Shown: piece after piece, positions 1 through 49,717 of the stretch
How positions within the stretch are numbered: position 1 is the first letter of the stretch
Layout: every line of letters starts with the position of its first letter
Origin: a virus
DNA length: 64,000 bases
Direction: 5' to 3' (one strand)
IMG/VR virus record: IMGVR_UViG_3300035698_028218
Location: 1-64,000 of that record
The notes under the pieces: generated by a model
Seen by the model: only the letters and a program-made list of their open reading frames with translations
The model's database searches: none
What the model was told of the DNA's origin: nothing
Made by a program: the position numbers and the translations under genes

Positions 1-80
1 AGAGTTAATTATTGCAAATATATATTAAATATAATTAATATACAAATTACTTATTAGTAAATATTTTTTGTCGCTTACAT

Positions 81-107
81 CCCATCGACTAAAGATCGAT
101 GGGTTTT
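81..107. terminator. Perfect 8-bp stem-loop with short T run
   Basis: CCCATCGA (81-88) pairs perfectly with TCGATGGG (96-103) across a 7-nt loop, and TTTT follows on the plus strand. Read on the minus strand the hairpin lies just downstream of the promoter-like box at 119-127 and has no U run. It may therefore be a leader or small-RNA structure rather than a terminator. No gene is visible in bases 1-144. Confidence 0.45.
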
Positions 108-118
108 ACGCTCCTTTT

Positions 119-127
119 TATAAATAC
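119..127 (-). promoter_or_regulatory. Late-promoter-like box (GTATTTATA in coding orientation)
   Basis: The plus strand reads TATAAATAC, the same nonamer found before most structural genes of the window. It points left, away from the gene that ends at 145, so it would serve RNA or a gene beginning at or beyond the window edge. The stem-loop at 81-103 would lie in the first part of that transcript. Confidence 0.5.
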
Positions 128-144
128 TCAGTAATTGCATTTTT

Positions 145-756
145 TTACAATAAAATTACGGAATGTGGTTTTATATATGGATAATAGGGGAAATTATCTT
201 CTAATTGCTTTACTTTTATTGATGATCTATCTTTAATAATATTATTTTCCTTTTCATAAAGATTATTAATAAAGTCATCGTTAAAATTAAGTGATTTAGT
301 ATATACTATTTTATCAATACCAATGATTTCATTACCTGATAAAAAATATAGCTTATCTTCTCCATCGTATACTTTACTATAATCTTTAGGTATTACTTTT
401 TCAAGGTCTTCCTCTGTTTTAATATTATAAAAAAATGGGTCAATCATTTCATAACTGTAACTACCACAATAATATTTTATTACGTTTCTACTAAAGTTAA
501 AAATACCATCAATATGATCACTTTTCTTCTCATCAAAAGAGAATTCCCAATAAAATCTATTTTTTTTGATCTCTTTATTTAGTATAATTAACTCTCTTTT
601 TGGTTTAAATAGTTCATAAACACTAAACCACCCAATAAATAATGTAGGTAAGGTTTTATCTATGTTTTGTAAATCATCGTAATTTAAATAATTAATGTGA
701 CTTACTTTTTCATGATTAACTAATTCACTATTACTTACTACATTCCCTAATTTCAT
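145..756 (-). CDS. Conserved-looking phage protein of unknown function
   Basis: A 203-aa soluble protein with no signal peptide, membrane segment or motif that I can name. It begins MKLGNVV and is rich in Asn, Lys, Ile and Tyr, like its neighbours. Its start overlaps the stop of the upstream gene as ATGA, which indicates translational coupling. It is the last gene of the long minus-strand run that starts at 10172. It lies at the end of the glycan cassette, so a role in surface sugar modification is possible but rests only on position. Confidence 0.75.
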   Translation of the reverse strand: MKLGNVVSNSELVNHEKVSHINYLNYDDLQNIDKTLPTLFIGWFSVYELFKPKRELIILNKEIKKNRFYWEFSFDEKKSDHIDGIFNFSRNVIKYYCGSYSYEMIDPFFYNIKTEEDLEKVIPKDYSKVYDGEDKLYFLSGNEIIGIDKIVYTKSLNFNDDFINNLYEKENNIIKDRSSIKVKQLEDNFPYYPYIKPHSVILL

Positions 757-1358
757 ATTATACTATAATCTCTTTCACCTAACCAATCACCATACTTACT
801 TTGAATACTTCTAATACCTTCTATTGGTATCTTAGAGGTGAAACCACCTATGTTTCTATTAATTGAATTAAACTCATCAACAGCGTTCTTTACAAAAGAA
901 AAATCTAGATTTTTTCTATTGATCATTAAAAGAGTAATTAATTTATCCATCATTTCGGTAGTAATCCCTTCTTCATATTTAATTACTAGGTCTGGAGTAA
1001 ATTTAGCTCGAATATCATGTCTGTTTAATATAAATGAAGCAATCATTCTATAATCTCTATTCATGAAGGATGGATCATTATCTAACATTTCTGACACTAT
1101 ATCTCTCACATCTCTAATGTGCAGTATTTTAATTTGATAATTACTAGGTTCGTATATCACTGAGTTATCAATAATATACTCAAGGCTACTCCCTCTTACC
1201 TTTCTACCATCACTTTTATATTCTTTATATTTTTTATTTCCATAAAACGATATTTTTATTCTATGATGTTCCAATATTTTTATTAATAGTTTATTAAAAT
1301 CTTCTTCCCAACCAAATAACATTCCACCAATATATATGCGTCTTTCTTCTATTTCCAT
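753..1358 (-). CDS. Sulfotransferase-like protein
   Basis: 201 aa. The segment LHIRDVRDIVSEML resembles the 3'-phosphate-binding RDPRDV-type motif of PAPS-dependent sulfotransferases. A later VIKYEEGI resembles the V-R-YEDL segment of that family, and the C-terminal KYGDWLGE also fits. The expected N-terminal 5'-phosphosulfate loop (GxxRSGTT-like) is not evident; the N-terminus reads YIGGMLFGWEEDF instead. The family assignment is therefore tentative and activity uncertain. It overlaps both neighbours by a few bases inside the glycan operon. If correct, it would sulfate a carbohydrate or a surface protein made by the cassette. Confidence 0.5.
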   Translation of the reverse strand: MEIEERRIYIGGMLFGWEEDFNKLLIKILEHHRIKISFYGNKKYKEYKSDGRKVRGSSLEYIIDNSVIYEPSNYQIKILHIRDVRDIVSEMLDNDPSFMNRDYRMIASFILNRHDIRAKFTPDLVIKYEEGITTEMMDKLITLLMINRKNLDFSFVKNAVDEFNSINRNIGGFTSKIPIEGIRSIQSKYGDWLGERDYSII

Positions 1359-2371
1359 TATGTTATTTCTTTTAAAATATTAATAATCTTTTTAGATGAA
1401 TATCCATCACCAAAAGGACATGAATCATCAACAAAGTAATTAGAAATATTCTCTTCAAATACTTCAATCAGTTTCAATGGATTTTCCACCATAACTGTTG
1501 ATTGTCCAATAGCTTCTGGTCTTTCAGTATTATTTCTGCACGTTAAGCATTTTTTCATTAGAAAACTACATTCTTCTTGAATACCTCCAGAATCAGTAAT
1601 CACCAATTTAGCGGAGTTTATATATTTTATCAAATCATAGTGATTAATTGGGTCGATGTCAGATATATTTTTTGCAGTTAAAATACCTCTATGTTTCTGT
1701 ACATTAGGATTAGGATGAACAGGGAAAACAAATCTCAGATCAGGGTGTTTTAGTGCAATTTTATTTATTGCATCAAACCACCCATCCATTTTATTATGAT
1801 TTTCTCTTCTATGTAATGTCACTAATATAATATCATCATATATTGGGGTCTCATAAATGAATTCCCTTAGATTATCCAATGCAGTGTTACCAACAACAAA
1901 AATATCCCCACTAACCCCTTCATTAAGTAGATTGGTTTTTGATAATTCGGTTGGGCATAAGTGAATATCTGCTATTCTAGATACTAATTGTCTATTCATT
2001 TCTTCTGGAAATGGACTTGTTTTATCATATGTTCTTAGACCAGCCTCTAGATGTATTATCTTCTTACCATGATTAAATGCTGATAAAGCAATAGCTAATA
2101 CCGAGGTAGTATCTCCCTGTACTAATACATGTGTAATATCTGGATCATCAAATATGTCACCTTGTTTTAATATATTACCAATTACTGTATCTAATCTGTT
2201 ATTGTTGATCACATAATCCATTGTAAAATTATAATCAGCATCAGAAGGTGCAATATCTTTATGTTGACCAGTAAAAAGAACCTTTATTGGTAAATTTTCC
2301 TCTCTCATTTCAGCAATTAGTGGTTTCACTTTTAACCACTCTGGTCTAGTTCCGTATGTTATTAGTATCAT
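1358..2371 (-). CDS. wecB: UDP-N-acetylglucosamine 2-epimerase
   Basis: 337 aa, near the usual 360-380 aa of the non-hydrolysing epimerases that interconvert UDP-GlcNAc and UDP-ManNAc. The N-terminal ILITYGTRPEWLKVKPLI matches the family signature (xxxGTRPExIKxxPL). Further hallmarks are FTGQH, VQGDTTS, HLEAGLRT, FPEEMNRQL, LVTLHRREN, FPVHPNP and the UDP-binding ITDSGGIQEE. The next gene overlaps its stop by one base. It would supply ManNAc-type sugar nucleotide to the four glycosyltransferases upstream in the operon. All catalytic stretches look intact. Confidence 0.93.
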   Translation of the reverse strand: MILITYGTRPEWLKVKPLIAEMREENLPIKVLFTGQHKDIAPSDADYNFTMDYVINNNRLDTVIGNILKQGDIFDDPDITHVLVQGDTTSVLAIALSAFNHGKKIIHLEAGLRTYDKTSPFPEEMNRQLVSRIADIHLCPTELSKTNLLNEGVSGDIFVVGNTALDNLREFIYETPIYDDIILVTLHRRENHNKMDGWFDAINKIALKHPDLRFVFPVHPNPNVQKHRGILTAKNISDIDPINHYDLIKYINSAKLVITDSGGIQEECSFLMKKCLTCRNNTERPEAIGQSTVMVENPLKLIEVFEENISNYFVDDSCPFGDGYSSKKIINILKEIT

Positions 2372-2390
2372 ATGAGATTCTTATATTTTA

Positions 2391-3050
2391 TCATAATTGT
2401 TTGTATTCTTTAAAAACATCATTATCTTTTAAATCTTTATATCCACCAAACTCACCTAAATCAGGGACGACCATTGGATAGTTTTGCATTAACGATAATC
2501 CATGTGATGCTTCCTGTGGTGTCATATACATGTTCCACCCAAGAGATTTAACGTTATCATCCTTATATCCAACTTCAGACCTTCCTTCATATCTTGCTTT
2601 CTTAAGCCATTCAACTGCTTCTGGGTTATCAGTTAATATCATCCCACCTTTACCAATTGAAAGTGTTTTTTTAATATGAAATGAAAGACACATATAACTG
2701 TCTTTAATATACATACTTGATGATAATCTCTTTGCAGCATCATAAATTGGTAATGGTTCTAATTGATATACTCCACTCCATTCAAAATTCTTAAATACTG
2801 GTGTGAACCCTGCGTGAATTACCGACATTGGTACTGAAAGATATGTTCTATTCGGTAGAATTACCTCATTATTTAATTGTTGATCACAATGCTTCATCCA
2901 CATCAATGAAAGAAATAATGTATTAGTACAACTATCAACAGCAACTGCATATGGTGCACCTGTATATGCAGCCATTTCTTCTTCAAACATTTTTACAATT
3001 TTATATGGATTGTGCAATGTTTTTTTATTTTCAAATATTTTTTCTTCCAT
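2391..3050 (-). CDS. Short DegT/DnrJ/EryC1-type aminotransferase
   Basis: 219 aa resembling the N-terminal large domain of PLP-dependent sugar aminotransferases. Visible family features are VAVDSCTNTLFLSL (phosphate-binding stretch), NRTYLSVPMSVIHAGFTPVF, an Asp in PIYDAAKR, and SFHIKKTLSIGKGGMILTD, which contains the expected PLP lysine. Normal members are 370-400 aa; this one lacks most of the C-terminal small domain. No remnant follows, because the epimerase begins 19 nt later, so it is a compact form or a truncation. It lies next to the epimerase and a GNAT acetyltransferase, consistent with making an acetamido sugar. Confidence 0.82.
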   Translation of the reverse strand: MEEKIFENKKTLHNPYKIVKMFEEEMAAYTGAPYAVAVDSCTNTLFLSLMWMKHCDQQLNNEVILPNRTYLSVPMSVIHAGFTPVFKNFEWSGVYQLEPLPIYDAAKRLSSSMYIKDSYMCLSFHIKKTLSIGKGGMILTDNPEAVEWLKKARYEGRSEVGYKDDNVKSLGWNMYMTPQEASHGLSLMQNYPMVVPDLGEFGGYKDLKDNDVFKEYKQL

Positions 3051-3820
3051 TAATCTAAATTTATATCATCCATCCATCCATGCAAAGTTATAATAACATT
3101 ACTTGGTTTGAATCCAATTCTAGTAAAGGCTCTATTTACTGAGTCGTTATTTATTAAAACATTATGTTCTTCCCAATGAAACCCCATTTCAGAACCCCAC
3201 TCTAACCCAGCAATTGTAATGTCTTGAAATATACCCTTTCCTCTGTGTTTGGGGTCTACTGCACCCATACCACCCGCTGCATATATTTTACCTCCCTCAT
3301 CATATGTTTTAAATGAGAGATACCCTGCAACTTCACCATCTTTCTCTGCAACCAATATCTTATCTGCCACGTTTAGGTTTGTGCAAGTATTATATGCCCA
3401 ATCACCATATGCATCTAAACAATCATTTTTTTTTAATCTTTTGTTTGCAAAATAATGACCATAGTTATTAAAACATATTCTAGCCAATTTAACCATTCTT
3501 GATGTATCTTCTACTTTAAAATCTCTTATTATAAATGACCCATCTCTCTTTGGTAACTTAGTAATATTAAAGTCTTTGAGATTATAATAATATGTTTGTT
3601 GTGCATCTTTAATTCCAAACCCATAACTCTCTAGTTGGTTTATAATTTCAATATTATCGAATCCCATTCTTGCAATAACTAATTCATATTTATTGTCTAA
3701 TAAATATGAAATACCCTCATTAATCCCTTTGTTATTGAGGAATTCATTATTTATTTTACCAACCTTAATATTAAATCTTTTACTATCTATTCCACTATAT
3801 ATATCCATCACCAAATACAA
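3050..3820 (-). CDS. GNAT-family N-acetyltransferase
   Basis: 256 aa. The C-terminal half (about residues 95-250) has the GNAT fold pattern: a strand ending GEVAGYLSF, then AAGGMGAVDPKHRGKGIFQDI, which contains the acetyl-CoA pyrophosphate loop (Q/RxxGxG/A-like HRGKGI), and a late INNDSVNRAFTRIGFKPS typical of the family. The N-terminal part is less clear and may be a substrate-recognition region, as in WecD-like amino-sugar acetyltransferases. It shares one base with the aminotransferase gene downstream, so acetylation of the amino sugar made next door is the simplest proposal. Confidence 0.8.
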   Translation of the reverse strand: MYLVMDIYSGIDSKRFNIKVGKINNEFLNNKGINEGISYLLDNKYELVIARMGFDNIEIINQLESYGFGIKDAQQTYYYNLKDFNITKLPKRDGSFIIRDFKVEDTSRMVKLARICFNNYGHYFANKRLKKNDCLDAYGDWAYNTCTNLNVADKILVAEKDGEVAGYLSFKTYDEGGKIYAAGGMGAVDPKHRGKGIFQDITIAGLEWGSEMGFHWEEHNVLINNDSVNRAFTRIGFKPSNVIITLHGWMDDINLD

Positions 3821-4560
3821 GTTTTCTTTAATGATGCACCACCAGTTAAATACCCCCTATTGGTATCTACTCCAAGAGAGTTATTTAACATTGTTCCTAC
3901 ATCAATATAAGTATTTTCTTTTTCAGCTAAAAATAATTTATGTATTAAGACCTCACTCAATGAAGATGCTGAAAATAAAAATATATGATCTTTAATATTA
4001 TTATTTTCTATCCAATCAATAATTTGATCTGAAATATTGAAATTATTCACCATACAATTTTCTCCAACCCTAAAATCTTTAACCACCTCGAATGGTAGTT
4101 TAGATATATCCATAGTTTCATTACAAATATATACCACATTCTTAAATAGAGGGAGCATTTCATTCATAAATCTTGGGTAATTGGCATTTATTAATAAATT
4201 AGACCATGTTAAATGATCATCATCACCTCCACGAAAATCAACTTGCCACTTAAAATTTTCTTCTCCAACACAACACTTACAACTAAGACCCACAAAATAA
4301 TTCTTATGGTGATACTGAAATGAGTCTTTTAGTGCATCGAAAAAATACCTATGCTCTACTGGATCAACATCTTTTAAATTTACAGAATTGTAAATACCTA
4401 ATCCTCTAATACCATCTATCTCATACCAACTATCACCAATCTTAAGACTTTTATTCATTAGAAGGTGCATTTCACCATCAGAAAATCTTGTATATGCAAA
4501 ATTCTCACCATTTAATAGCTTATTTTTTAATAAATCAAAATGCTCTACAAAATCTTTCAT
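3808..4560 (-). CDS. GT-D-fold glycosyltransferase-like protein
   Basis: 250 aa. AYTRFSDGEMHLL (about residues 22-34) matches the RFGDGE signature of the GT-D (DUF1792-type) glycosyltransferases found in surface glycan loci. The C-terminal YIDVGTMLNNSLG fits the other conserved end of that family (a D-x-G stretch near the C-terminus). No membrane segment is seen, so it is probably cytosolic, acting on a lipid- or protein-linked acceptor. It overlaps the GNAT gene by 13 bp and lies 1 bp after a GT-A enzyme gene. The substrate cannot be read from sequence. Confidence 0.72.
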   Translation of the reverse strand: MKDFVEHFDLLKNKLLNGENFAYTRFSDGEMHLLMNKSLKIGDSWYEIDGIRGLGIYNSVNLKDVDPVEHRYFFDALKDSFQYHHKNYFVGLSCKCCVGEENFKWQVDFRGGDDDHLTWSNLLINANYPRFMNEMLPLFKNVVYICNETMDISKLPFEVVKDFRVGENCMVNNFNISDQIIDWIENNNIKDHIFLFSASSLSEVLIHKLFLAEKENTYIDVGTMLNNSLGVDTNRGYLTGGASLKKTCIW

Positions 4561-4561
4561 A

Positions 4562-5296
4562 TTATTTACTTAACTGAACAGTTTTCCAACCATTCTTTAT
4601 ACAATGTATAGTAGTTTCGTTTCTTAGGTCTAGGTGATTACTTATTTTCCAAGAACTATTTTCGTCCGACCCTACTCTCCAACCATAATCCACATCACAA
4701 GACCATAAATTTTTATTATCTACGGGGTGTGGAGGTACGAAGGTATTTATATTACCATATTTTTGAGCTAAATATGAAAACATAATATCCTCACCATTAT
4801 CCCAAGTGAATGGTTTTTCATAAAAAAGATATTTACTCCATTCTTGTTTAAAAAACCATGCGTGACCAACAAGATCAACCCTCTCAATACTACTTGAATT
4901 AGTGCCATTCCACCCTACTTTAGTGTGTGGTACATAACCATTACTATGCTGTAGAATACCGCTACCGCCATATATACCCTCTTGTTTTGACATTGAATCT
5001 AAACAATTTTTAAACCAATCTTTTTGAGGTAAAATATCGTCATCAAACATTGCGATATACTCTGTTCTACACAATAATGGTATAGTAAATCTACCAAAGA
5101 ATTTAGTGTTCCAATTACATTCGTATGTGTTTATTTTCTCATCTTCAGGTAAATATTGATCAATACCAGAGTTATTAAACCAAACATGAATATTTTCAGG
5201 TTTAATTCTAATACTTTGATTTAGTATTGCCTCAATTTGTTTTTCTAGTGTATCAGGTCTTTTATACACATTTAAAATTACACTTATATCACTCAT
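4562..5296 (-). CDS. GT-A (family 2-like) glycosyltransferase
   Basis: 244 aa. The N-terminus SDISVILNVYKRPDTLEKQI is the usual GT2 nucleotide-binding start. EYIAMFDDDILPQKDW (about residues 79-94) holds the metal-binding DxD motif. Later WDNGEDIMFSY supplies an ED pair at the usual place of the catalytic base. No membrane helix is present. It belongs to the glycan operon, packed within two bases of the neighbouring glycosyltransferases. Sugar specificity is unknown. Confidence 0.85.
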   Translation of the reverse strand: MSDISVILNVYKRPDTLEKQIEAILNQSIRIKPENIHVWFNNSGIDQYLPEDEKINTYECNWNTKFFGRFTIPLLCRTEYIAMFDDDILPQKDWFKNCLDSMSKQEGIYGGSGILQHSNGYVPHTKVGWNGTNSSSIERVDLVGHAWFFKQEWSKYLFYEKPFTWDNGEDIMFSYLAQKYGNINTFVPPHPVDNKNLWSCDVDYGWRVGSDENSSWKISNHLDLRNETTIHCIKNGWKTVQLSK

Positions 5297-5297
5297 T

Positions 5298-6200
5298 TTA
5301 ATCTATTCCAAGTACATCATAATATAGTTCTTCGATTAATTCAACAGAATTATCACTTCTATATTTTTCCACATCTTTTGGTACTTCTTGATAAGTTATG
5401 TCGAAAATAGTACCAGTATTATCAACCTCATAAATATATGCTGGTTTACCACAAAGCCAACCTTCTATTGTTGTTCTACCTCTAAAAATACCGATAGTAG
5501 TGTCACATTTTTTATAGTAATCTTCAACATTTTCTTTTATACCAAAATATGTTATATGACTATATTTTAATAAACTTGACATTACATTGAGTCTATCAAT
5601 TCCAATAATCCAAAACTCTTTACCTTCTCTTTCAGTTCTTTTTGCGGTATGATTGATCATATTGATTCTTAAATGATCAATAGTACCAACAAAAAGAACA
5701 ATTTCCTTTTCATTCTTTTTTTCTTTACTATAATTTGTGTTAAATCTTTCATGATCAAATGGATTGTCAATATGAATTATTTTATCTTCTTTAATACCAT
5801 ACGACATTATATAGTCTTTAATAGTATCTCTAATTGAAATATATTTTTTAATCTGTGGTGAAATAATTGGCACTTCAAAAACAGGAATAACCTCAGACCT
5901 AACATGCATTACGGCAGGTACATTGGGATAATTTCTTAAAATTATCTCACCTATTGGTTTGTGATTAATATGAAGGATATCAAATTTTTGTTTAGGTGCC
6001 TCACTTACATGAAAAACATTTACACCATATTCACTAATCATAGAAACCAACGGTTCCCCAACAATATTAGCTACAATAGTTACGTTATGCTCCCATTTAC
6101 TTAATTGCTTTGCCATTTCAAAATTAGAAATTTCTGAACCAGTAAAACTATTAAATGAATTACAACAAATTAATATATTAAAACCACTAAAATCTTCCAT
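5298..6200 (-). CDS. GT-B (family 4-like) glycosyltransferase
   Basis: 300 aa, shorter than the typical 350-400 aa. The N-terminal FTGSEISNFEMAKQLSKWEHNVTIVAN is the acceptor-side Rossmann start of GT4 enzymes (glycine-rich loop, then hydrophobic strand). IHIDNPFDHERFN and IVLFVGTIDHLR mark the domain boundary. The segment from GIFRGRTTIEGWLCGKPAYIYE is the donor-binding end with the family E-x7-E-like region. It starts one base inside the upstream glycosyltransferase gene. It probably adds one sugar in the same glycan. Confidence 0.83.
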   Translation of the reverse strand: MEDFSGFNILICCNSFNSFTGSEISNFEMAKQLSKWEHNVTIVANIVGEPLVSMISEYGVNVFHVSEAPKQKFDILHINHKPIGEIILRNYPNVPAVMHVRSEVIPVFEVPIISPQIKKYISIRDTIKDYIMSYGIKEDKIIHIDNPFDHERFNTNYSKEKKNEKEIVLFVGTIDHLRINMINHTAKRTEREGKEFWIIGIDRLNVMSSLLKYSHITYFGIKENVEDYYKKCDTTIGIFRGRTTIEGWLCGKPAYIYEVDNTGTIFDITYQEVPKDVEKYRSDNSVELIEELYYDVLGID

Positions 6201-6913
6201 TAATTCTCTAGTTTTAGGGGTAGGTCATCTTTAAAGTGATTAACAAACATTAATCTATTTAATTCCCACTCACCATTTACTTGACCTATGGATAGGTGAG
6301 TTACTCTAATATCAGTAACGACACCAATATTACAACCAGCAAGGTAATTACTAATACAAAACGGTATGTCGTAATAATGAAACATACCAAATCTTAAATC
6401 AAACTCTTCTTCAATATTAAACGGATCAACAGCCATAAATAAACCATCAATTGCCACAACTGGCTTAACTCCTCTAAATTCTTGTGAGTATGTACTAGTA
6501 TATTCCTCTAGACCGTTATCGTGATTAACAATACCATACATTCCCTTTGTTTTCATTTGGTTGGTCTCATCTAACCACCAAACACCGTTTTCTTCAATTG
6601 TATCTGTTCCTGCGATTCCAATTATCTGATAGTCATTATTTCTATCATTAAAATGCATCAATAATCTATTGCCCCAATTTTTTGTATTGAATAAAACATC
6701 GTTATGAACAAATACTGCGATTGTAGATTCCTTATCTTCAATTTCAGAAAGTGCTCTATTATAAAGTTCTGGGAGAGAATATTCTCTTTTATTTTCGTAC
6801 CTCTTTAATTTATACTTGTGGCTACCTATGGTTCTCTTTACTCTTTCTTCAAATAATGAGTCTTCCTCATGTGATAGATGTGTTGAATAAATAACAACAA
6901 TTTTCTTCTTCAT
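6200..6913 (-). CDS. StrF/GT2-like glycosyltransferase
   Basis: 237 aa. The pattern SLPELYNRALSEIE, then TIAVFVHNDVLFNTKNWG, matches the StrF-type glycosyltransferase domain (SLAxxYNxGxxxA and vFxHDDV). GIAGTDTI follows at the expected place, and VVAIDGLFMAVDP and FHYYDIPFCISNYLAG complete the fold. HND replaces the more usual HDD. It is the first gene of the glycan cassette and begins only 17 nt after the gp53-like tail gene. No promoter box is seen between, so it is probably transcribed with the tail genes. Confidence 0.8.
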   Translation of the reverse strand: MKKKIVVIYSTHLSHEEDSLFEERVKRTIGSHKYKLKRYENKREYSLPELYNRALSEIEDKESTIAVFVHNDVLFNTKNWGNRLLMHFNDRNNDYQIIGIAGTDTIEENGVWWLDETNQMKTKGMYGIVNHDNGLEEYTSTYSQEFRGVKPVVAIDGLFMAVDPFNIEEEFDLRFGMFHYYDIPFCISNYLAGCNIGVVTDIRVTHLSIGQVNGEWELNRLMFVNHFKDDLPLKLEN

Positions 6914-6930
6914 GAAGCAAATATATAAAA

Positions 6931-7239
6931 TTATTCTTTAATATATAAATCAATTTTATCATTAAACTCACTTCTAACTCTATCTATTGGGAACGGTATG
7001 CGAATTATATCACCAATCTCAATATCAAATTCACTAGTATACTTGGAATTACCAAGTAATATGAAAAAATCATACATTGGATTATTATAGTATTTATTGG
7101 CATACCTATCTAGTCTATCGTTAGGTTTCCATTCAATTGTTTTGTCTGATGGTGATGCACTAATTTTAGTAAAAGGTAAATCAATAATTTCATTATTATC
7201 GACTTTAAGTGCTTTATATCTATTAAAATTATTTTTCAT
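6931..7239 (-). CDS. 53: gp53-like baseplate wedge protein with LysM-like domain
   Basis: 102 aa. The segment EWKPNDRLDRYANKYYNNPMYDFFILLGNSKYTSEFDIEIGDIIRIPF has the LysM-like pattern of T4 gp53-type baseplate wedge proteins (DRLDxIAxxYYgdpxlwwvIaxaN, then a basic exit strand). The segment is split here only by family comparison; no domain search was possible. T4 gp53 is larger (about 196 aa), so this is a short version. It lies 2 nt after the giant tail protein gene, consistent with baseplate assembly. Start ATG at 7239 is the only good choice. Confidence 0.75.
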   Translation of the reverse strand: MKNNFNRYKALKVDNNEIIDLPFTKISASPSDKTIEWKPNDRLDRYANKYYNNPMYDFFILLGNSKYTSEFDIEIGDIIRIPFPIDRVRSEFNDKIDLYIKE

Positions 7240-7241
7240 AA

Positions 7242-10172
7242 TTATTCTTCATTATTTCTACCACCCAAAAAAGAGTTTTGAATTGTTCTAAATATCTTAG
7301 ATGCTATTTGTTTATTCTCCATTTCATTTGCAACACTTTCAGCAGAACCATTTCCCTTTTTAAATGTTGAATTACCATAGTAATTGAAAGATACTGCATT
7401 TTGTAGTGCATCGATAGGTTCTTTTAATGATTGACCACCAATTAACTTTAGTGACATAGTAACGTCTGCTGTCATAAATTGTAATCCCATGCCTTCTGGG
7501 TTCATATCCCAAGGAGCATCATCATAATTTAATTCCATATTCTCAATAATTGCTTTTGTATGGAACTGATCACCTAATCTAATTATAACTACTGGTTGTT
7601 TCCCAAAAACAGAATTTCTACTAGTAATAATATTTCCATTATCAGCAGTTTTTGTTATTGGCGTACCTTGTCTTGTACATTGATGTAAGAATGTTAGTCT
7701 TCTATGATAATCTTCAGGTGTTTGAGAATAAAAAACAGATTGGAAAACATTATTTTCTACAACTGATTGAAACCCTTCTGGATATAATTCATTAACTGTG
7801 TGTTCATTAAATGTAGATGAGATACCCTTCATTGAACTCTTACTTAGTAAATTTCTTTTCTTTGAAATTGAATTTAATTGACCTTCAAGGTCTTTAATTC
7901 TCGCTTTGTCTTCAACACTAATATTATCTATTCTTTGTGTTACATTCCCATTATTAAAAAATAAAATTTCAACAGTTCTTTCTTTTTTAACTATTTCATT
8001 GGCGATATTTTCAGATGACTCACCAAGAGAACCTGCGTCTTGAGAACCTCTTGGAAGAGTTCTTATTATATTACCATTTCTAAGCTTATTAATGAAATTA
8101 TCATTTGGATATGCAATTTCAAATTGATCTATAATATATTCCTTGACCGCCTGAATTCTTCTACTACTTAGTTCTTGATTATATTCTTCAGATATAGTTA
8201 TATCAGAATTATTAAACAATCTACTTGATCTACCAATTAATTCTATAGTCACTTGACCTCTCTTTTCCTCAGAAAATAGATCAACAACAATATCTTTGAT
8301 TCTACTATTAAAATCCTCATTTAATCCAAAGTCCCAACCTTGATCTATTACTGTTTGGTTTCCTTGACCATTCTCATATATCTCACCACCAATCTCAGTT
8401 GTAGTATCAACATAATTTTCTATGTAACCAGTAACACCAAAAACACCACTAACATAAGGTTGATCATTAGGGAAAAACACATTAATATCACTTGGTATTT
8501 CTAATTCAATTGGTTCTAATTCAATTGTATCACTAAGTATTTCTAATTCAGTTAGAATTTCGATTTCCTTAGCAATTAAATCAAAATCATCACCATAAAT
8601 AATTTCTTCATTTAATGAAGCAGTACTACCAAAATCAAAGAAATTTGCTATCTCTCTGTGTGATTTCATTTTTTTCACATGTGAAGGGTGATCAACTAAT
8701 AACTTAAAACTAAGCGTTGCTGATCTTTCGGTTGAATTATATGAATAGATTGGTTCACCTCTACCAATAAAATTGGTTGTGTCATGCTTTACTGATACTT
8801 GTTCAATTACTCTAACATCATAAGGTGCAAACCACATTACTCTACCATTGAAACCCTTTTCATGTTCTGGTAATCTACTAAAAATTTCGCTTTCTCTATC
8901 GAATGCTAAATTTTCCATTGAAAACATAACATTCAAATTAACACCAGTATCATTTGGGCTAGGTGCATACTTAGGTACAACATTATTATAAATTACTGAA
9001 TTGGGGTTTTGGTTATAAACCTTATTACCTTCAAACCTAATTGCCTTTGCAAAATTATTATATGGATCATCAATTGTGTGTTGTCTTACACCATCACCTT
9101 CCCTTAACATATTGGGAAATGCTGTATCTGGTACATAATACAAACCTGAACCCTGTTTACCTTCTATTGAACCATCAATCTCAGATTTAATTATTTTTTC
9201 ATTACCACCTAATCCATTTCTTTTAATTTTATGTAATCCTTGATGAAGCTTTAATAATCCAACTTTGGCATTTGAACCATTCTCTAAACCTACTCCCCAT
9301 CTTAAATCATCATTATTAAATCCAAATCTTGGGTTATTAACACCATCGCCATTTCTTAATACATCTTCAACTAAAGCAAGATTACGTGTTTTACCGTAGA
9401 TATTATTTTTACCATATGCATCTTCCAATTTTCCATACTCTTGAGTATTATTAGTTCCATAATGTAAAATAAGTGAGTTACGATAATCAATATTTATGTT
9501 TTCAATTTTTGAATTGATATCAGGAAAATATATTTGATTTGTTGGAAAGAAATCTCTATTTGATATATACCTATCAATACGTTTAAGATTTAATTTATCA
9601 CTTTGGAGATTACGTGTAAATGGTATATCAGTTCTCTTATAATAGTTACTATCCAATTGATTTACTAATATTCCTAATTGACCTTTACCAGTATTCTTTA
9701 ATAGATCAATATCATTATGAGTATATGTATTGACAATACGTGGTAATTTTCCAGTACTAAATGAGGTTAATTTTTCTACTAATAAACCAAATGTTGTTTG
9801 ATTTTCTCTTCTTGTTATTTCAAAATCAATCTTCTTAGTAAGAAAACCAGTATTGGGATCACCATCAACTAGGTTTTTAATGTTAAATGTAGGTACAAAC
9901 TCAGCTTTAGCCCTATTGGATACTGTCTTTTGTAGTTGATCACTTAATATTTGAACTCCTATTTGTTGTATTGGTGTTAATGGTGTTGTTAATCTACCTA
10001 ATACTGTATTTGTAAAGTCAAAACTTTCAACTGGTTTTATAATACCAGAAATACTATTGATTGCATCAACAAACTTTGGATTTTCAACATTGTACGGATC
10101 ATCAGGGGAATATAAATTCCTAGATAGTATCTGGTTTCTTAATTCTTTTGAATTATCTAAAAGTCTTGACAT
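7242..10172 (-). CDS. Giant tail/baseplate protein with internal OmpA-like domain
   Basis: 976 aa, no signal peptide. About residues 615-755 look like an OmpA C-terminal peptidoglycan-binding domain: VTIELIGRSSR, then YNQELSSRRIQAVKEYI, corresponding to the family's GHTDxxG and N-xxLSxxRAxxVxxYL, and a closing ERTVEILFF strand. The flanking regions hold beta-rich segments, such as SATLSFKLLVDHPSHV and the C-terminal MTADVTMSLKLIGGQSL, of the kind found in phage baseplate proteins. The gene heads an 11-gene minus-strand run and has a late-type promoter box 20 nt upstream. A structural role, possibly contacting the cell wall during injection, is inferred. Confidence 0.75.
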   Translation of the reverse strand: MSRLLDNSKELRNQILSRNLYSPDDPYNVENPKFVDAINSISGIIKPVESFDFTNTVLGRLTTPLTPIQQIGVQILSDQLQKTVSNRAKAEFVPTFNIKNLVDGDPNTGFLTKKIDFEITRRENQTTFGLLVEKLTSFSTGKLPRIVNTYTHNDIDLLKNTGKGQLGILVNQLDSNYYKRTDIPFTRNLQSDKLNLKRIDRYISNRDFFPTNQIYFPDINSKIENINIDYRNSLILHYGTNNTQEYGKLEDAYGKNNIYGKTRNLALVEDVLRNGDGVNNPRFGFNNDDLRWGVGLENGSNAKVGLLKLHQGLHKIKRNGLGGNEKIIKSEIDGSIEGKQGSGLYYVPDTAFPNMLREGDGVRQHTIDDPYNNFAKAIRFEGNKVYNQNPNSVIYNNVVPKYAPSPNDTGVNLNVMFSMENLAFDRESEIFSRLPEHEKGFNGRVMWFAPYDVRVIEQVSVKHDTTNFIGRGEPIYSYNSTERSATLSFKLLVDHPSHVKKMKSHREIANFFDFGSTASLNEEIIYGDDFDLIAKEIEILTELEILSDTIELEPIELEIPSDINVFFPNDQPYVSGVFGVTGYIENYVDTTTEIGGEIYENGQGNQTVIDQGWDFGLNEDFNSRIKDIVVDLFSEEKRGQVTIELIGRSSRLFNNSDITISEEYNQELSSRRIQAVKEYIIDQFEIAYPNDNFINKLRNGNIIRTLPRGSQDAGSLGESSENIANEIVKKERTVEILFFNNGNVTQRIDNISVEDKARIKDLEGQLNSISKKRNLLSKSSMKGISSTFNEHTVNELYPEGFQSVVENNVFQSVFYSQTPEDYHRRLTFLHQCTRQGTPITKTADNGNIITSRNSVFGKQPVVIIRLGDQFHTKAIIENMELNYDDAPWDMNPEGMGLQFMTADVTMSLKLIGGQSLKEPIDALQNAVSFNYYGNSTFKKGNGSAESVANEMENKQIASKIFRTIQNSFLGGRNNEE

Positions 10173-10192
10173 TTAGTTTTCTTATAAATACG

Positions 10193-10201
10193 ATTAGGTA
10201 T
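10193..10201 (-). promoter_or_regulatory. Late-promoter-like box for the tail-glycan operon
   Basis: GTATTTATA in coding orientation, 20 nt before the ATG at 10172. It is the only such box in front of the 10172-145 run. Confidence 0.7.
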
Positions 10202-10470
10202 TTTTTACATAAAAAAAAAATAGTTCTATCCCCTGACACAATTCATTGTAACTTATACTGATTAAGTTATTGATTCTTTTTTTCATAGAGAAAAAGAATT
10301 ATGCTTTTATGCTGTGGCTTAAAGTTCATTAATATTGTTTGAAATAACCTAGAATACGTAGTATTTTAGTGTTATAAGTATTACTGAAATGAATGTTATT
10401 GTGCTAACTGGTGAGTCTGCGAAGTTACAACAAAAAAACGATAGATGCAAGTATATAGAAAAAATAATTA
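10202..10470. other. Gene-poor stretch with an inverted repeat
   Basis: No convincing gene. ATTCTTTTT (10273-10281) pairs with AAAAAGAAT (10291-10299) around a 9-nt loop. On the plus strand a 29-codon frame runs from ATG 10389 to TAG 10476-10478, ending inside the 3' end of the tape-measure gene. It has no recognisable motif and is probably chance or a remnant. This is one of the longest gaps between genes in an otherwise tightly packed window. Confidence 0.5.
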
Positions 10471-12837
10471 CTAACTAGCTGCACTTATTTGATTTTTTTG
10501 ATCTGATTGTTGTATTTCCAAACGTCTAGCTAAATTAAGACCCTCACTAACCTTGTCACTATCTAGGTACATATCAACTTGTAAATTCATTGCAACTTCC
10601 TTATTTGAGAACTCAACTTTTAGTGGTTTAGATAAAATACCTGCTAGTGATGAGAATGAAGATGAATTAGTTTGTAGTCTAGAAATATCTTGTAATAATC
10701 CTCTTATTTCAGTTAAATTAGATGTGTCACTTTTTAGTAAAGTATTTAATGGTTCTAATCCTGCACCTAGTTTTTGTATACCATCTGCATGTTTTGCCAT
10801 TCCAGATATTGATTTATTCAATGTAATTGCACCTATTATACCCATTGGGTTACCCATCATTAATGATGCTGCACCAATTCCTGCCATACCAACTCCAATT
10901 CCATTTATATTTACATTATCTAATTTACTAAGACCCTCAGCCATTTTACCTATACCAGAAGCAGCAATACCAATTCCAGCACCAATCATAGTAACTGTAC
11001 CGCCTAACGCAAGCATACCCACTGCACCAGCTGTTGCTGCTGCACCAACAATTGGTAGTATTACCATTAAATTTCCTAATCCTAATCTAATTTCTTTTAG
11101 TGCTTTTAATTGTTTATCGTCAAGTCCTTTTAATGAATCGGAAATCATAGAAATACCTTTCCCTGCCATCATTATTCCTGCACCAGTACCAGCAGTAGCT
11201 AATCCAATTCCAGCACCGCCTTTTAGCATTCCACCTCCACCTTTTAACATACCAGCACCACCACTACCGCCCAGAGCCATGCTACCTAATTTAAATGCTC
11301 CTTTTAGAAGACCACCAGCACCAATTAGTGCAACTGCAACGGCACCTGCCATTTTCCATGATGTATTTAAATCGTCTACCCATTTAACACCTCTTTCAAC
11401 AACGGGTCTCATTTTTTCAAGAACTTTATTTACACCAGTTAATACTGGTAGTAATGTTGCTTTTAGTGATTGTATTGTATTTTGAAATGCATCTTCAAAG
11501 TTTTGTGCTGCTTTTGCTCTTTCTTCAAGTGATTTACTTTGTGATACTACCGCATCAAGTTGTGACTTAGTTAATGTGCCTATGTCTTTAGTAACACCAG
11601 CAATTGAGAACTTACCTGTTTTATTATTAAGCCTTGCCATACCCTCAACAGCTTCTTTTTGTTCCCTACTGAACCCACTATTAATCATTTCTGATCTCAT
11701 TTTCTGAATTAGAGTCATTTGCTTTGCTTGATTTACAAGCTGACCAGTATCCATACCCAATGCTTGACCAACTCTTTCAAGTCTATCAATATCAACTGCC
11801 GAAACAAATGTTTCAAAAGTACCATCCGCATTTTTCTTAAAGGTTGCAACACCTTTAGTCATCTCATTAATTTTTTGAGTGAACTTAGCTGGATCGTTAC
11901 GTGATAAGAAAAGTAATTCAAATGGATCACTTTTTGCAAACTCACCACCCATAACTTGTAATTGTGCTGCTAGGTCTACAGCACCTTCTAATGTTCTTGC
12001 TCTACCAGCAGAATCTATCATAGACCCCATATCGATCTTAAACTTCTCACTATATGCTGCCATTTTAGCAAAATCTTTGACACCATTTCTGAATGTCATT
12101 GTTTGTAGTCTATTAAAGTTAGCTGATATATTTTTGAATACCTTAGTCGCATTCACGCCCATTCTGTCGGTGGTATTTAATATTTGTTCTATGTTCGATG
12201 CAGAATTTTCTGCATTTAGTCCCATTAATTCAAACTGACCCGCAAGTTTAGCTGCGTTTTCTATACCTAATCCAGTCCCAGCACCAATTAATGCTATTGA
12301 TTTATATGATTCTGCTGAAAGTAATGCTGCTCTACCCGTCTCGTCTGCGTAAATTTTTGCTGCAACAGCTAATTCTCCAGTACTTATACCTAACTGTGCT
12401 GAAAATGATGCTGCTCCCTCGATTGATGATCTTACTATTTGAGATTTGGCTGCGGTAATACCAAATTCAAGGCTGATTGACTTAATCGCCTTATCTGATT
12501 GCATTAAATAATCTCTGGTTGATTTGGTTTTATTCCAAATTTTACCTAAAACATCAGATATATTTCTTTCGGTTTTAAGTTTTTTATCTAAATTTCTTAG
12601 TTCTTCTCTTTGGGTCTTTAATATATCTCTTTTTTTAATTAACTCACTCCCAGTAAGACTTAAACTTTCCTTCTCTGATTCAACAAGTATTTTTTGTAGT
12701 AACCCTCTTTTTTCTTCAATTAGGTATTGTTTTTTCCTAGTATTGAGAGATAATGACATCGCATCTAACTCTTTTTTATTAAGTTCTAGACTTTCTCGTA
12801 AATTTTTAATTCTATTTTCCGAATTATCTTCTGCCAT
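10471..12837 (-). CDS. Tail tape measure protein
   Basis: 788 aa. About residues 1-100 are heptad-rich (long Leu/Lys/Glu coiled coil). The middle is Ala-rich helical sequence. About residues 490-690 are extremely hydrophobic Gly/Ala stretches (GGAGMLKGGGGMLKGGAG and similar), as expected of a tape measure that threads the tube and enters the membrane. The C-terminus is polar. It directly follows the tail-assembly chaperone pair, the standard order in tailed phages. By the general rule of about 0.15 nm per residue it implies a tail near 120 nm. A late-type box lies 17 nt before the start. Confidence 0.88.
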   Translation of the reverse strand: MAEDNSENRIKNLRESLELNKKELDAMSLSLNTRKKQYLIEEKRGLLQKILVESEKESLSLTGSELIKKRDILKTQREELRNLDKKLKTERNISDVLGKIWNKTKSTRDYLMQSDKAIKSISLEFGITAAKSQIVRSSIEGAASFSAQLGISTGELAVAAKIYADETGRAALLSAESYKSIALIGAGTGLGIENAAKLAGQFELMGLNAENSASNIEQILNTTDRMGVNATKVFKNISANFNRLQTMTFRNGVKDFAKMAAYSEKFKIDMGSMIDSAGRARTLEGAVDLAAQLQVMGGEFAKSDPFELLFLSRNDPAKFTQKINEMTKGVATFKKNADGTFETFVSAVDIDRLERVGQALGMDTGQLVNQAKQMTLIQKMRSEMINSGFSREQKEAVEGMARLNNKTGKFSIAGVTKDIGTLTKSQLDAVVSQSKSLEERAKAAQNFEDAFQNTIQSLKATLLPVLTGVNKVLEKMRPVVERGVKWVDDLNTSWKMAGAVAVALIGAGGLLKGAFKLGSMALGGSGGAGMLKGGGGMLKGGAGIGLATAGTGAGIMMAGKGISMISDSLKGLDDKQLKALKEIRLGLGNLMVILPIVGAAATAGAVGMLALGGTVTMIGAGIGIAASGIGKMAEGLSKLDNVNINGIGVGMAGIGAASLMMGNPMGIIGAITLNKSISGMAKHADGIQKLGAGLEPLNTLLKSDTSNLTEIRGLLQDISRLQTNSSSFSSLAGILSKPLKVEFSNKEVAMNLQVDMYLDSDKVSEGLNLARRLEIQQSDQKNQISAAS

Positions 12838-12854
12838 TAGATGGAATATTTACA

Positions 12855-12863
12855 TATAAATAC
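12855..12863 (-). promoter_or_regulatory. Late-promoter-like box before the tape measure
   Basis: GTATTTATA in coding orientation, 17 nt before ATG 12837. It lies in the gap between the chaperone extension (stop at 12876) and the tape measure. Confidence 0.65.
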
Positions 12864-12875
12864 TATGATTGTTTT

Positions 12876-13034: not shown

Positions 13035-13054
13035 CACAATTTTTTTGTACTCAC

Positions 13055-45418: not shown

Positions 45419-48400
45419 ATGGCAACTAAAAGCAATGTCAATTTAATTGACCCTAATGAAGTTATAGGTATTTTACCTGTGGAGGATAATGGTATTGGGT
45501 CGTATGAAGATTTGACCATTTTTGCTGAATTAAAGGCAATTAGGAAAAGTAGATCAATATTAATTGATGATGGCGTTGCGTTAAAAACTCAAAGTAGTTT
45601 TAATAATGACTCAGTTAAAATAAACCTAATGGGGTTTGATCAGTCTGAGGAAAATAACTATCAACATACAACAAAATGGTCGGAAAACTATAATATAAAT
45701 CCAACTGAAACTAAATATGAGGGTTTTGGGATTACAAACATTAAGGTATTAATAAACTCATCATATGTGCCTACGGTGACAATAGATTTTGAGGATGTTA
45801 GGGGTTTGGTTTTATTTAATGAGGGCAAGGATTCACCATATAGTATTTTATTTGACTTTCCACCTCCAATTTTTGAGTTAACATTAAAGGGTTTCTATGG
45901 TAAGGCAATTAAGTATGATCTACACTTAACTAAAATTGACACTAATTTTAATGGTGATAAATCAACTTTTACCGTTAGTGCTAAGTTTATTGTTAGAACA
46001 TTTGCTCCTTTAAGTGATGTATTATTTAAATATAGCCTAATTAGTAGTTTAATGGAATTAGATGAAAGGGGAGAGGTATCTTCAATAAGTTCTGATCCTA
46101 CTGGTGTGCCTAAGAATACCTATGAGTACATAAAAAAACTAGAAACACTATATGAAGGTATTAATGATCTAGCAAAAGCAGGAGATATAAATAAAAAATT
46201 AGAGGAGAATAGAACTCTTCTAGAAAGACTTCAAGAAATAAGGGGGTCAGTAAATAAATTTTGGCTTCATGCTAATGACTCTAGTAGAGATGAAAGTAAT
46301 TCAAAAATAATTATATATAGTTCTGTTGTTGGTACTGTTGTTGAGCCAAGCGATACGTATGAAATAATTGGAAATACTGGAAAATTTGAAGCGTTAATTA
46401 ATAACGAAGGGACATCGAACGTTAATCTAGTAACAAACAATAAAATTTATATAGGTTTTAAAAATAGTGATGACAATAGTTTTAATGAAAGACTATTAGA
46501 AAGTATTAGAGAAAAACTCAACATACTCTCTTTTGGTATTATAGAATATACAATACCAGAGAATTTTATAACTATTGGTGGTGGATTAAATTCTAAATTA
46601 CCTGAAAAATATTTTGTTTTAGATATTACTGATTTCTATATAAGAATACTGAAGGAACTGAATAGTGTATCAGATCGAATTAAAAAATCGAATGAGGATT
46701 TCACTGATGAGGTTAATAGTATTGCAAGAAAAGAGCTTGGTGATGAAGGTTACCCAACAATAGGTAATGTTTTTAGATTTCTTTGTAATGACGTTGATTC
46801 ATTTTACAATAAACTAAGAGACGTTGGTATTAGAGCAGAAAGACATCATAATGAATATTTCAATACCATCTCTTCAGATTCATCAATTAAAGAAAAGAAT
46901 AAACAAAAGATAGTTACGGCATTTCCACTTTATGTTGTTGAAGAGAATATAATTGATATCAATCAATGTGCAACAAAAAGACAAGAAAAAAGAATACCTG
47001 AGAAATTAAGTAATAACCTATCTGAACCTTTTCCAGAGGTAGAATTTGTGAATGAATTTATTAGTAAATTTGTTGATTACACTGCAATAGATAATATATC
47101 TAATCTAAAGAAACAAACTGACGATCAGGGTAATAATAAATGGATACCACTAAATCCAATGGATTCTAAATTAAATGAATTAAATGGGTTAAACTATGAG
47201 TCTCCATATATATTAGATAACACAAAAAACAACCCTAGTGATATTATTGATCGTATGTTGGAGAGATTTTATGTGTTTACACAATATTCCTATTCCAATG
47301 CTTTTGATGGTGAAATTGAGCGTAATATTTTAGAATTTGGAGGTAAATCAGACGCAGCCAATTTAATAAACTCATTAGACGATAGTGAGTTAATTGGTTT
47401 AACGTCCCAATCGATTAATAAAACGTCAAATTTATTTAAAACTGATGTTGATGAATTTTATAAATTCCTGAAAAGGGAAGAAGAAAATGGAAATATTAAT
47501 AATTATTCTTCATTACCTTCAGGTGATACTACAAAAAAATATACTACATTGGGTGGTACGGATCAAAAGTTTTTTAGAGACCCATCTAATGACGGATATA
47601 ATCGAGGGTTTACTTCTGTATCTAGAAATGATATTGAGGTTAAGGTTGAAAATGGTAATACAATAGTTGATGAGTTTCAAGAATCATTAGCACCGTCTCT
47701 TTTCCAGAAATTTGTTAAATTCATTGGTCTTACAACTAATAATCTGGTTGTTGATGAATTTTCCAAAGAAAATATACCATTATTTTTAGATAGTGAGGAT
47801 GAGTATGATTCAAAGTTCACCACTAATCTTTTGGATAATGAAAGTATTCTAGATAAATGGGTAGATGTATTGTCTTTACATTCCACTTATCTTATTGATG
47901 TTTTGGGAGATAAAACAGAAGAGAATGTATTCTTTTTATTGTCTAGTTTTGGTATTGCGAACGGTATCCAAAAGGATAAATATAGACAGTATTTCTTAAT
48001 ACCATCGATACTTGAGGTACCTAATTTTTTAATTCCTTATATGGGTGGCTATATTAAATACCATACAGATAATGTTTTTAAAGAAAGTTATAATGAGTTA
48101 TTTATTGATAATACAGTATTATTTGAGGATAATATAATTATAACTGAAATTGAGGATGATAGTGAAGAAAATATTAATAAGGTATTGAATTTATCTAAAA
48201 ATGATAGGGATTTCTTCTTAGATGCTTTTGATGAAACATTTAATAGTGAAGATTATGAAGTTTTTTTGGTTAATCTTTTAGTACTTTTAACTACAATTAG
48301 GGATAACTCACTAAGTGAAGGCGAAATTAGAGACGAGCTAAAAAATAATGAATTATTATTAGGGTATCTTATTGGTAAACCAAATAATAATTATTTATTG

Positions 48401-49717
48401 TCTAATTCTGATTCATTACTATCGGGAAAAGCAAACTACCCAGATTACCAAACATTAGACGAGATAATTGATAATGATAAAAAGGAATATGCTGATATAT
48501 ATTTCGAATCATTTTTTACTTACTTTAGCGAAAATATTAAAAACAGAAGAGATGAAATAACTGAGGAAAAGGAAAGAATAAAATCTAGAGTTAATGATAG
48601 TGATATAAAGACAGAATTATATTACTCGTTTAAAAATATTTACGATAAATGGATTGCTGGTGAAGGGTCAGTGGCAAGAGGATTCCCTACAAATCAAAAC
48701 GGAAGTACATTATTCGATTCATTTGTATTTGTGGATAGGGCATTTAATGATATCGGTGGTGTAAATAGTGTTGTTGGTGATAAAACCCAAAGAGGGTGTG
48801 TTATTTCAGTGGATCAATTGGTGGATGCTTCCAAGGACTTTAATATAAATATGTTTTCATTAATGTCACAAATTTTATCTGTAAATAATTTTGAGTTCTT
48901 CCCATTAAGTACTTTCCTTAGTTTTAAGGAGGGGGATTGGGAAGATTCCTTTAGAACCTTTACTAGTCTAGAACAAACAGCACAGCAATCATTTGTGTGT
49001 ATGTATATTGGTGGTACCTCTAGTGTCTTAGATAATGGTAACGATGAGTTTGGTGAAGATGGTATTGTTAGCTTAACAGAAGACCTACCATCAGATTTTA
49101 GTAATGGTTGTATAGACAGTACACCACAACCATTAAATCCTAATTACGGTGATGGTAAATACGGTCAAGTGAGAGCATTTAGAATTAGATTCGGGAGTCA
49201 GGCACAGTCGGTATTCACTGATATTAAATTTGCATCTAGAGAGTATACAGAAACTAATGAGTCTTTACAAATCTTATCTAGGATTGCACAAGACGAAAGT
49301 AAATCAACACCAGTACCTAAAGGTCAAAATCTGTTTTCTGTATACGAAAATAGAGCGTATTCATCCACAGTAACAATGATGGGTAATATGATGATACAAC
49401 CAACACAATATTTTCAAATAGAGAATATTCCATTATTTAATGGTGCATATATAATTACAAAAGTGACACATGATTTTAGTCCAAATACTGCAAAAACTAG
49501 TTTTGAAGGTACTAAGATTGTTAGATATCCAGTTCCATTTGTTTATGATTTTGCGACCTCTATGCGATTAAAAGGAAGTACAATACTTTCTGCTGGTGAG
49601 GGTTTATCTAATGGTGGTACAATCACAATAAATCCAGATAAGAATGGGAATACTGATTTAGGTAATATTGGTGGTGCTGTTTTTGTTGGAATGAATGAAT
49701 TAAAAATAATACGATAA
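45419..49717 (+). CDS. Giant baseplate-hub-like protein
   Basis: 1432 aa, the longest gene here. The N-terminal 200 residues are beta-rich (VTIDFEDVRGLVLFNEG, ELTLKGFYGKAIKYDLHLTKI). The C-terminus (about residues 1300-1385: STVTMMGNMMIQPTQYFQIE, then GAYIITKVTHDFSPNTAKTSFEGTKI, in parts) has the pattern of hub proteins of the gp27/gpD class. The middle is long, Asn/Asp/Ser-rich and unrecognised. It is followed by a lytic transglycosylase whose start overlaps its stop, as hub and lysin adjoin in other phages. It is read opposite to the head genes on both sides. Confidence 0.75.
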   Translation: MATKSNVNLIDPNEVIGILPVEDNGIGSYEDLTIFAELKAIRKSRSILIDDGVALKTQSSFNNDSVKINLMGFDQSEENNYQHTTKWSENYNINPTETKYEGFGITNIKVLINSSYVPTVTIDFEDVRGLVLFNEGKDSPYSILFDFPPPIFELTLKGFYGKAIKYDLHLTKIDTNFNGDKSTFTVSAKFIVRTFAPLSDVLFKYSLISSLMELDERGEVSSISSDPTGVPKNTYEYIKKLETLYEGINDLAKAGDINKKLEENRTLLERLQEIRGSVNKFWLHANDSSRDESNSKIIIYSSVVGTVVEPSDTYEIIGNTGKFEALINNEGTSNVNLVTNNKIYIGFKNSDDNSFNERLLESIREKLNILSFGIIEYTIPENFITIGGGLNSKLPEKYFVLDITDFYIRILKELNSVSDRIKKSNEDFTDEVNSIARKELGDEGYPTIGNVFRFLCNDVDSFYNKLRDVGIRAERHHNEYFNTISSDSSIKEKNKQKIVTAFPLYVVEENIIDINQCATKRQEKRIPEKLSNNLSEPFPEVEFVNEFISKFVDYTAIDNISNLKKQTDDQGNNKWIPLNPMDSKLNELNGLNYESPYILDNTKNNPSDIIDRMLERFYVFTQYSYSNAFDGEIERNILEFGGKSDAANLINSLDDSELIGLTSQSINKTSNLFKTDVDEFYKFLKREEENGNINNYSSLPSGDTTKKYTTLGGTDQKFFRDPSNDGYNRGFTSVSRNDIEVKVENGNTIVDEFQESLAPSLFQKFVKFIGLTTNNLVVDEFSKENIPLFLDSEDEYDSKFTTNLLDNESILDKWVDVLSLHSTYLIDVLGDKTEENVFFLLSSFGIANGIQKDKYRQYFLIPSILEVPNFLIPYMGGYIKYHTDNVFKESYNELFIDNTVLFEDNIIITEIEDDSEENINKVLNLSKNDRDFFLDAFDETFNSEDYEVFLVNLLVLLTTIRDNSLSEGEIRDELKNNELLLGYLIGKPNNNYLLSNSDSLLSGKANYPDYQTLDEIIDNDKKEYADIYFESFFTYFSENIKNRRDEITEEKERIKSRVNDSDIKTELYYSFKNIYDKWIAGEGSVARGFPTNQNGSTLFDSFVFVDRAFNDIGGVNSVVGDKTQRGCVISVDQLVDASKDFNINMFSLMSQILSVNNFEFFPLSTFLSFKEGDWEDSFRTFTSLEQTAQQSFVCMYIGGTSSVLDNGNDEFGEDGIVSLTEDLPSDFSNGCIDSTPQPLNPNYGDGKYGQVRAFRIRFGSQAQSVFTDIKFASREYTETNESLQILSRIAQDESKSTPVPKGQNLFSVYENRAYSSTVTMMGNMMIQPTQYFQIENIPLFNGAYIITKVTHDFSPNTAKTSFEGTKIVRYPVPFVYDFATSMRLKGSTILSAGEGLSNGGTITINPDKNGNTDLGNIGGAVFVGMNELKIIR

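Follow-up and report, generated by a model that had tools for sequence, protein, structure and literature searches.

Why should a phage keep a block of sugar genes among the genes for its baseplate, and to what would those sugars be attached? The question is raised by positions 145-10172 (minus strand) of a stretch of viral DNA, hereafter the window, which comprises bases 1-64000 of the 71,744-base virus record IMGVR_UViG_3300035698_028218. Here, eleven co-oriented open reading frames (ORFs) lead from a large tail gene into the sugar-gene block. We believe, with a probability of roughly 0.6, that this block is an island in the baseplate operon of an uncultured large tailed phage, and that its products would glycosylate the virion late in infection, in the cytoplasm. 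The glycosylated part of the virion is probably the tail or the baseplate. As the original prediction had stated, the eleven minus-strand genes are separated by gaps of no more than 20 nucleotides (nt), with ORF calls giving eleven genes and values from -13 to 19 nt (-4, -1, 19, -1, -13, 1, 1, -1, 17 and 2 nt). The features concerned are as follows (aa, amino acids; PLP, pyridoxal phosphate).

10184..10191, minus strand: GTATTTAT element 12 nt before g11, the proposed transcript start
7242..10172, minus strand: g11, 976-aa tail protein with a weak OmpA-like segment and homologues in relatives
6931..7239, minus strand: g10, gp53-like baseplate wedge subunit (phrog_7145, E=2.6e-6), conserved in relatives, left bracket of the island
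6200..6913, minus strand: g9, StrF-type glycosyltransferase (PF13712), first island gene
5298..6200, minus strand: g8, GT-B-like glycosyltransferase (PF13439, E=2.6e-5, just under the cut-off)
4562..5296, minus strand: g7, GT-A (GT2) glycosyltransferase (PF00535) with an invariant DDD
3808..4560, minus strand: g6, GT-D (DUF1792-like) glycosyltransferase by predicted fold and alignment, with an invariant D-G-E
3050..3820, minus strand: g5, GNAT acetyltransferase (PF00583, E=1.8e-7)
2391..3050, minus strand: g4, short (219-aa) DegT-type PLP protein (PF01041, 88.3 bits against a cut-off of 19.8)
1358..2371, minus strand: g3, non-hydrolysing UDP-GlcNAc 2-epimerase, WecB (TIGR00236; PF02350)
753..1358, minus strand: g2, 201 aa, function unassigned (best relative E=0.013)
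145..756, minus strand: g1, 203 aa, tail-operon gene, right-side neighbour of the island
120..127, minus strand: next GTATTTAT element, just after g1, marking the start of the following unit
45419..49717, plus strand: giant baseplate wedge protein, 1432 aa, relocated

The position of the island is judged here from related loci that were anchored on the tail protein, with no sugar gene used in their selection and five repeats dropped. In the close group, a StrF gene follows gp53 within 3.5 kb at 23 of the 24 testable loci, the remaining one carries the wedge gene, and two more loci have no room. At loci of the distant group, gp53 is followed by the giant wedge gene in 36 cases and by neither gene in 13, with two lacking room and none carrying StrF; six tail-anchored loci have no gp53. 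Relatives that lack the cassette carry gp53, the giant wedge gene, g1 and a small gene in that order (L028, and L039 with one extra ORF before g1), or gp53, the giant wedge gene and the small gene (L038, L068 and L081). Because cassette-free relatives show this order, we read the island as filling a slot between gp53 and g1. The original prediction had counted g1 among the sugar genes, a view not supported given its presence in L028 and L039, and g1 is instead a member of the tail operon. In a further locus (L007), a StrF fusion stands alone between gp53 and g1. The giant wedge protein, which is encoded directly after gp53 in cassette-free relatives, lies in the window at 45419-49717 instead (blastp E=5e-45 to L028, 4e-48 to L039 and 6e-34 to L038).

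The tail operon resumes past g1 in relatives, and the small gene follows g1 in 30 of 33 rows, a count that includes repeats of the same contigs. The three misses are L017 and L122, each with less than 180 nt remaining, and L034; a longer copy of this last locus, L093, carries the small gene 1201 nt on. The earlier description of a cassette behind baseplate genes holds insofar as the cassette is downstream of tail genes, although in relatives the island sits between tail genes. Because the contig stops 144 nt past g1, the right bracket is lost in the window, and we infer it from relatives.

Both edges of this slot carry a promoter-like signal. The window holds 29 copies of the octamer GTATTTAT, 21 of them no more than 60 nt upstream of an ORF on the same strand, compared with a mean of 0.46 and a maximum of 5 for permuted octamers; the octamer appears to act like a late-promoter-like element of this phage. 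At this end of the window, the minus strand holds copies at 10191 and 127 only, with none between them. The arrangement recurs in 23 related loci, for which 100 permuted octamers served as the comparison. There, GTATTTAT is found at the tail-gene start in 18 of the 20 testable loci (permuted mean 0.18) when positions within 60 nt either side of the called start are counted, or in 16 of 20 when a strict upstream position is demanded, and 22 of 23 loci carry it immediately past g1 (permuted mean 0.23). Inside the relatives' cassettes it occurs at chance level (19 copies, permuted mean 24.2).

The original prediction had seen its sole promoter-like box before the tail gene. A GTATTTAT copy is indeed located there and none lies inside the run, but a second copy follows g1, and the sigma-70 scan was uninformative, returning 96 sites against 104 expected by chance. 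A terminator scan was also at chance level. A scan for promoters of the Bacteroidota type (TTG, 17-23 nt, TANNTTTG) gave a single intergenic match on the minus strand, located at 45, and none between cassette genes. Taken at sequence level, the promoter-like edges, the chance-level interior and the tail genes on both sides of the island place the transferase genes inside a predicted late structural operon, and the proposed co-expression with tail proteins late in infection is well supported.

What the slot holds is partly conserved and partly exchanged. Eighteen complete cassettes were compared, these being GT-A-profile loci that reach g1, with repeat contigs removed and loci ending before g1 left out; GT-A and g1 are thus present by selection. 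The cassettes have 10-19 genes and keep the order StrF, GT-A, GT-D, WecB and g1, with StrF, GT-D and WecB each present in all 18 (one StrF, in L093, is labelled by its GT-B half). Nearly all of their genes lie on one strand (262/263, the exception being StrF in L124), and 225 of the 245 gaps are no longer than 20 nt. Catalytic motifs of the cassette enzymes are invariant across aligned homologues. The two closest cassette pairs each have 11 genes in common, out of 14-17 in one pair and 16-17 in the other. The variable genes include, among the families listed, transferases, methyltransferases, dehydratases, kinases and a few sulfotransferases (best 25 of 57 families, from a Pfam tally of 150/156 non-core genes of at least 100 aa, a subset of the 263).

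Seven of the genes in the window are supported as sugar genes (StrF-type, GT2, GT-B-like and GT-D transferases, WecB, GNAT and short DegT), rather than the nine that had been proposed. The calls of an epimerase, an aminotransferase and an acetyltransferase are borne out by matches to TIGR00236/PF02350, PF01041 and PF00583, respectively. WecB scores above the TIGR00236 equivalog cut-off (265.4 bits versus 210.15) and reaches just 45 bits against the model for NeuC, the hydrolysing form, whose cut-off is 236. Among the transferases, the GT-D, StrF and GT-A types hold up, whereas the GT-B assignment falls just under its cut-off. StrF matches PF13712 with 67.8 bits (cut-off 27), as do eight of eight aligned homologues. 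In many relatives, StrF and the GT-B-like domain are fused in a single protein of 536-554 aa, and g9 and g8 therefore look like a split pair.

The GT-D assignment of g6 comes from its predicted structure (mean pLDDT 95.7), since the protein matches no Pfam family at E<=0.1. A D-x-E motif carries a functional role in GT-D (DUF1792) glycosyltransferases, and D28-G29-E30 of g6 is invariant in all 46 aligned sequences. Foldseek matches the model to PDB 4phr with E=4.3e-7, and comparison with the DUF1792 GT-D fold yields a Z of 14.9 and a root-mean-square deviation of 3.4 over 199 aligned residues, the next group lying at a Z of about 10. The fold and the D-x-E motif are thus shared with known enzymes of this kind (4phr, 4pfx and 5v4a), but sequence identity is only about 14%. 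PDB sequence-profile searches with g6 and with StrF found no match.

The DegT-type protein g4 is not a full-length member of its family, having 219 aa against about 360-390 aa for full-length DegT/DnrJ/EryC1/StrS proteins; it lacks both a stretch between its two PF01041-matched parts and the C-terminal domain. Even so, K128 and D104, which we take to be the PLP lysine and aspartate, are conserved without exception in the 24 aligned homologues (picked by a length of 195-250 aa). Proteins of this short form, about 200 aa long, turn up in both phages and bacterial bins, Prochlorococcus among them (L174-L201), and most bacterial homologues are short.

If these identities are correct, the locus might operate in the following way. 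Transcription would start before the 976-aa tail gene and proceed through gp53 and the sugar genes to g1 as one late transcript, as the motif and gene order suggest. WecB is expected, at family level, to convert UDP-GlcNAc to UDP-ManNAc, and the probable role of the GNAT and DegT proteins is to produce or cap an amino sugar. The four soluble transferases (StrF with GT-B, GT-A and GT-D) could assemble a short glycan in the cytoplasm, and its acceptor would be a virion protein encoded on that late transcript, with tail and baseplate proteins as the likeliest candidates. Because the core enzymes persist among relatives while the others are exchanged, each phage may have its own sugar coat.

The choice of acceptor turns on the membrane steps. 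None of the 263 genes in the 18 cassettes encodes a protein with four or more hydrophobic segments, whereas in the control O16 locus of E. coli K-12 the same measure assigns six to the polymerase and nine to the flippase. Likewise, WecA/MraY-type (PF00953), PglC-type (PF02397) and Wzx (PF01943) proteins were found in 0 of 14 related records, compared with 12, 9 and 13 of 14 control genomes. The absence of multi-pass, lipid-carrier and flippase proteins makes an O-antigen-type product less likely and favours an acceptor in the cytoplasm, and virion proteins are the nearest candidate because they are encoded in the same unit as the sugar genes.

These data bear most directly on the idea that the cassette alters the host envelope late in infection, through lipid A-core sugars or a capsule precursor, and thereby hides receptors, blocks superinfection or stops virions from sticking to debris. 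The enzyme classes match those of surface polysaccharide loci, late timing would suit phage release, and relatives of the short DegT and GT-D proteins occur in bacterial bins, some of them beside multi-pass proteins (L176 and L174). However, the membrane steps are missing from the cassettes, although the host could supply both the lipid-carrier transferase and Wzx, and the position in the baseplate operon is kept in the close relatives counted above. We consider this explanation unlikely but deserving of attention.

Glycosylation of the phage DNA strikes us as improbable. The original prediction favoured the virion or a late cell-surface change over DNA; of these targets, it is the virion that the missing membrane proteins favour. 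Because 9 of 14 related records encode a protein of the thymidylate-synthase family, a possible source of a modified pyrimidine, DNA retains a small share of the probability, and phages that glycosylate their DNA are described in the portions of PMC12619734 drawn on here. Against this, the four transferases match no phage DNA-glucosyltransferase family (Pfam and PHROGs, E<=0.1), the late unit is shared with tail genes, and five of the 14 records, some of which may be incomplete, have no thymidylate synthase. We also give little credence to a mobile cargo of mixed sugar genes, lacking a single fixed target and kept wherever insertion is tolerated, since such cargo would account for the strong turnover and for related clusters at another place in other contigs, but not for core enzymes, invariant catalytic residues and gene order that persist even though the tail proteins of the window and its 18 relatives are only about 30-38% identical.

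Several observations count against late virion glycosylation as we have set it out. Within the relatives' cassettes, six of the 19 internal GTATTTAT copies are near an ORF start (permuted mean 1.9, maximum 9), and some relatives may for this reason have an inner promoter. In the window, a TATATTTG box, presumably the Bacteroidota -7 motif, precedes StrF by a few nt, and no -33 box accompanies it at the spacing that was scanned. The gene g2 is unexplained, with no family above cut-off in Pfam, PHROGs or NCBIfam. Host lipid A-core at the inner membrane could also be within reach of soluble transferases, which would need no flippase of their own to act there. Finally, marine contigs (L141, L150 and similar) carry GT-A, WecB, GT-D, GNAT and short DegT near an apparent PhoH gene, with no tail genes detected near the sugar cluster; since the related cluster adjoins PhoH there, enzymes of this set are not always encoded beside tail genes.

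Other features of the locus deserve brief mention. The sulfotransferase-like function once proposed for g2 is unsupported, with no sulfotransferase family at E<=0.1 in the same three databases; other cassettes do contain some. The OmpA domain that had been assigned to g11 finds no Pfam family at E<=0.01, and the likeness comes from a weak match between a profile of seven homologues and PDB 6u83 (E=0.002). For g1, the predicted structure matched one phage protein in a viral library and nothing in PDB at E<=0.001, a VIA second look gave a best Z of 5.6, and rows suggesting a DNA-polymerase exonuclease-like protein were weak and not significant. An additional GT2-type transferase is encoded outside the cassette at 17406-18218 (plus strand).

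The window is AT-rich; a tRNA scan found no tRNA and an Rfam search gave no match. Positions 1-14000 have no DNA similarity to phage records, and gp53 used as a single-protein query found no relative in viral contigs. Uncultured phage contigs as long as 371 kb are recovered by a search with the tail protein, the profile of that protein yields at least 596 relative-encoding stretches among the best 600 matches, and a GT-A profile scan yields 204 relatives. In 50,697 phage records, tblastn found no relative of GT-A, GT-D, g1 or the tail protein, and the 75 stretches of bacterial genomes that matched the GT-A pattern included no relatives. Given so many relatives in the scans and none in those phage records, the phage group is common, and nothing in these records points to a cultured member. 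A phage-type cluster also appears in genome bins labelled Proteobacteria, Alphaproteobacteria or Thaumarchaeota (L175, L178 and L179), which may be misbinned phage DNA.

At the contig end, window positions 1-144 contain a hairpin directly after g1 and resemble part of an IS200/IS605-type element. At the other end of the record, bases 70242-71744 (10243-11745 of L013) carry a TnpB-like gene and an apparent partial TnpA gene, again IS200/IS605-like in appearance. The contig break may lie inside a repeated or inserted element.

Bacterial O-antigen and capsule loci generally have fixed flanking genes and an exchanged inner set of sugar enzymes. The island described here has the same layout as these loci (E. 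coli K-12 O16 being our control), but, unlike them, no flippase, polymerase or lipid-carrier enzyme was found in the phage cassettes. More tentatively, and at somewhat less than even odds, we suggest that it is a phage counterpart of a bacterial serotype locus, in which a fixed slot (gp53 on the left, g1 on the right and late promoters at the edges) would receive exchanged glycan genes, each set giving a different tail coat that might govern adsorption, shielding or virion stability. The sugar cluster of Flavobacterium phage immuto (NC_055915) resembles the island in having a short DegT (40% identical) beside transferases and no hydrophobic segment in 13 genes, but it is not next to annotated tail genes and has no GT-A or GT-D homologue by tblastn.

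Phage-encoded glycosylation is already known, and what appears to be new here is a swappable sugar island within a baseplate operon. In mycobacteriophages, the transferases responsible are reportedly encoded by the phage. Glycans have been described on their capsid and tail-tube proteins (Freeman et al. 2023, as cited in PMC12619734). Compared with that system, so far as the citing paper portrays it, the present one has seven recognised sugar genes (10-19-gene cassettes in relatives), which include sugar-making enzymes, lies in the baseplate operon of a much larger phage, and is known here from its genes. The portions of PMC12619734 drawn on here also describe moraphages, which are uncultured large phages with predicted hosts mostly among Bacteroidota, four putative transferase orthogroups among their shared genes, and variable islands; DNA, serotype and virion are discussed as targets. 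The phage studied here is likewise uncultured and large, with shared transferases and variable islands, but in those portions the moraphage account neither places transferases in a baseplate operon nor describes a cassette. In the library searched, judged by titles and abstract openings, no report of a sugar island in the baseplate operon of large phages was found.

Many sugar-transferase genes of phages have no assigned target. For the genes of this island, the position, the promoter-like edges and the absent membrane steps together point to the tail as a testable one. Should virions indeed be glycosylated, differences in tail coat between phages would add another layer to phage-host interplay.

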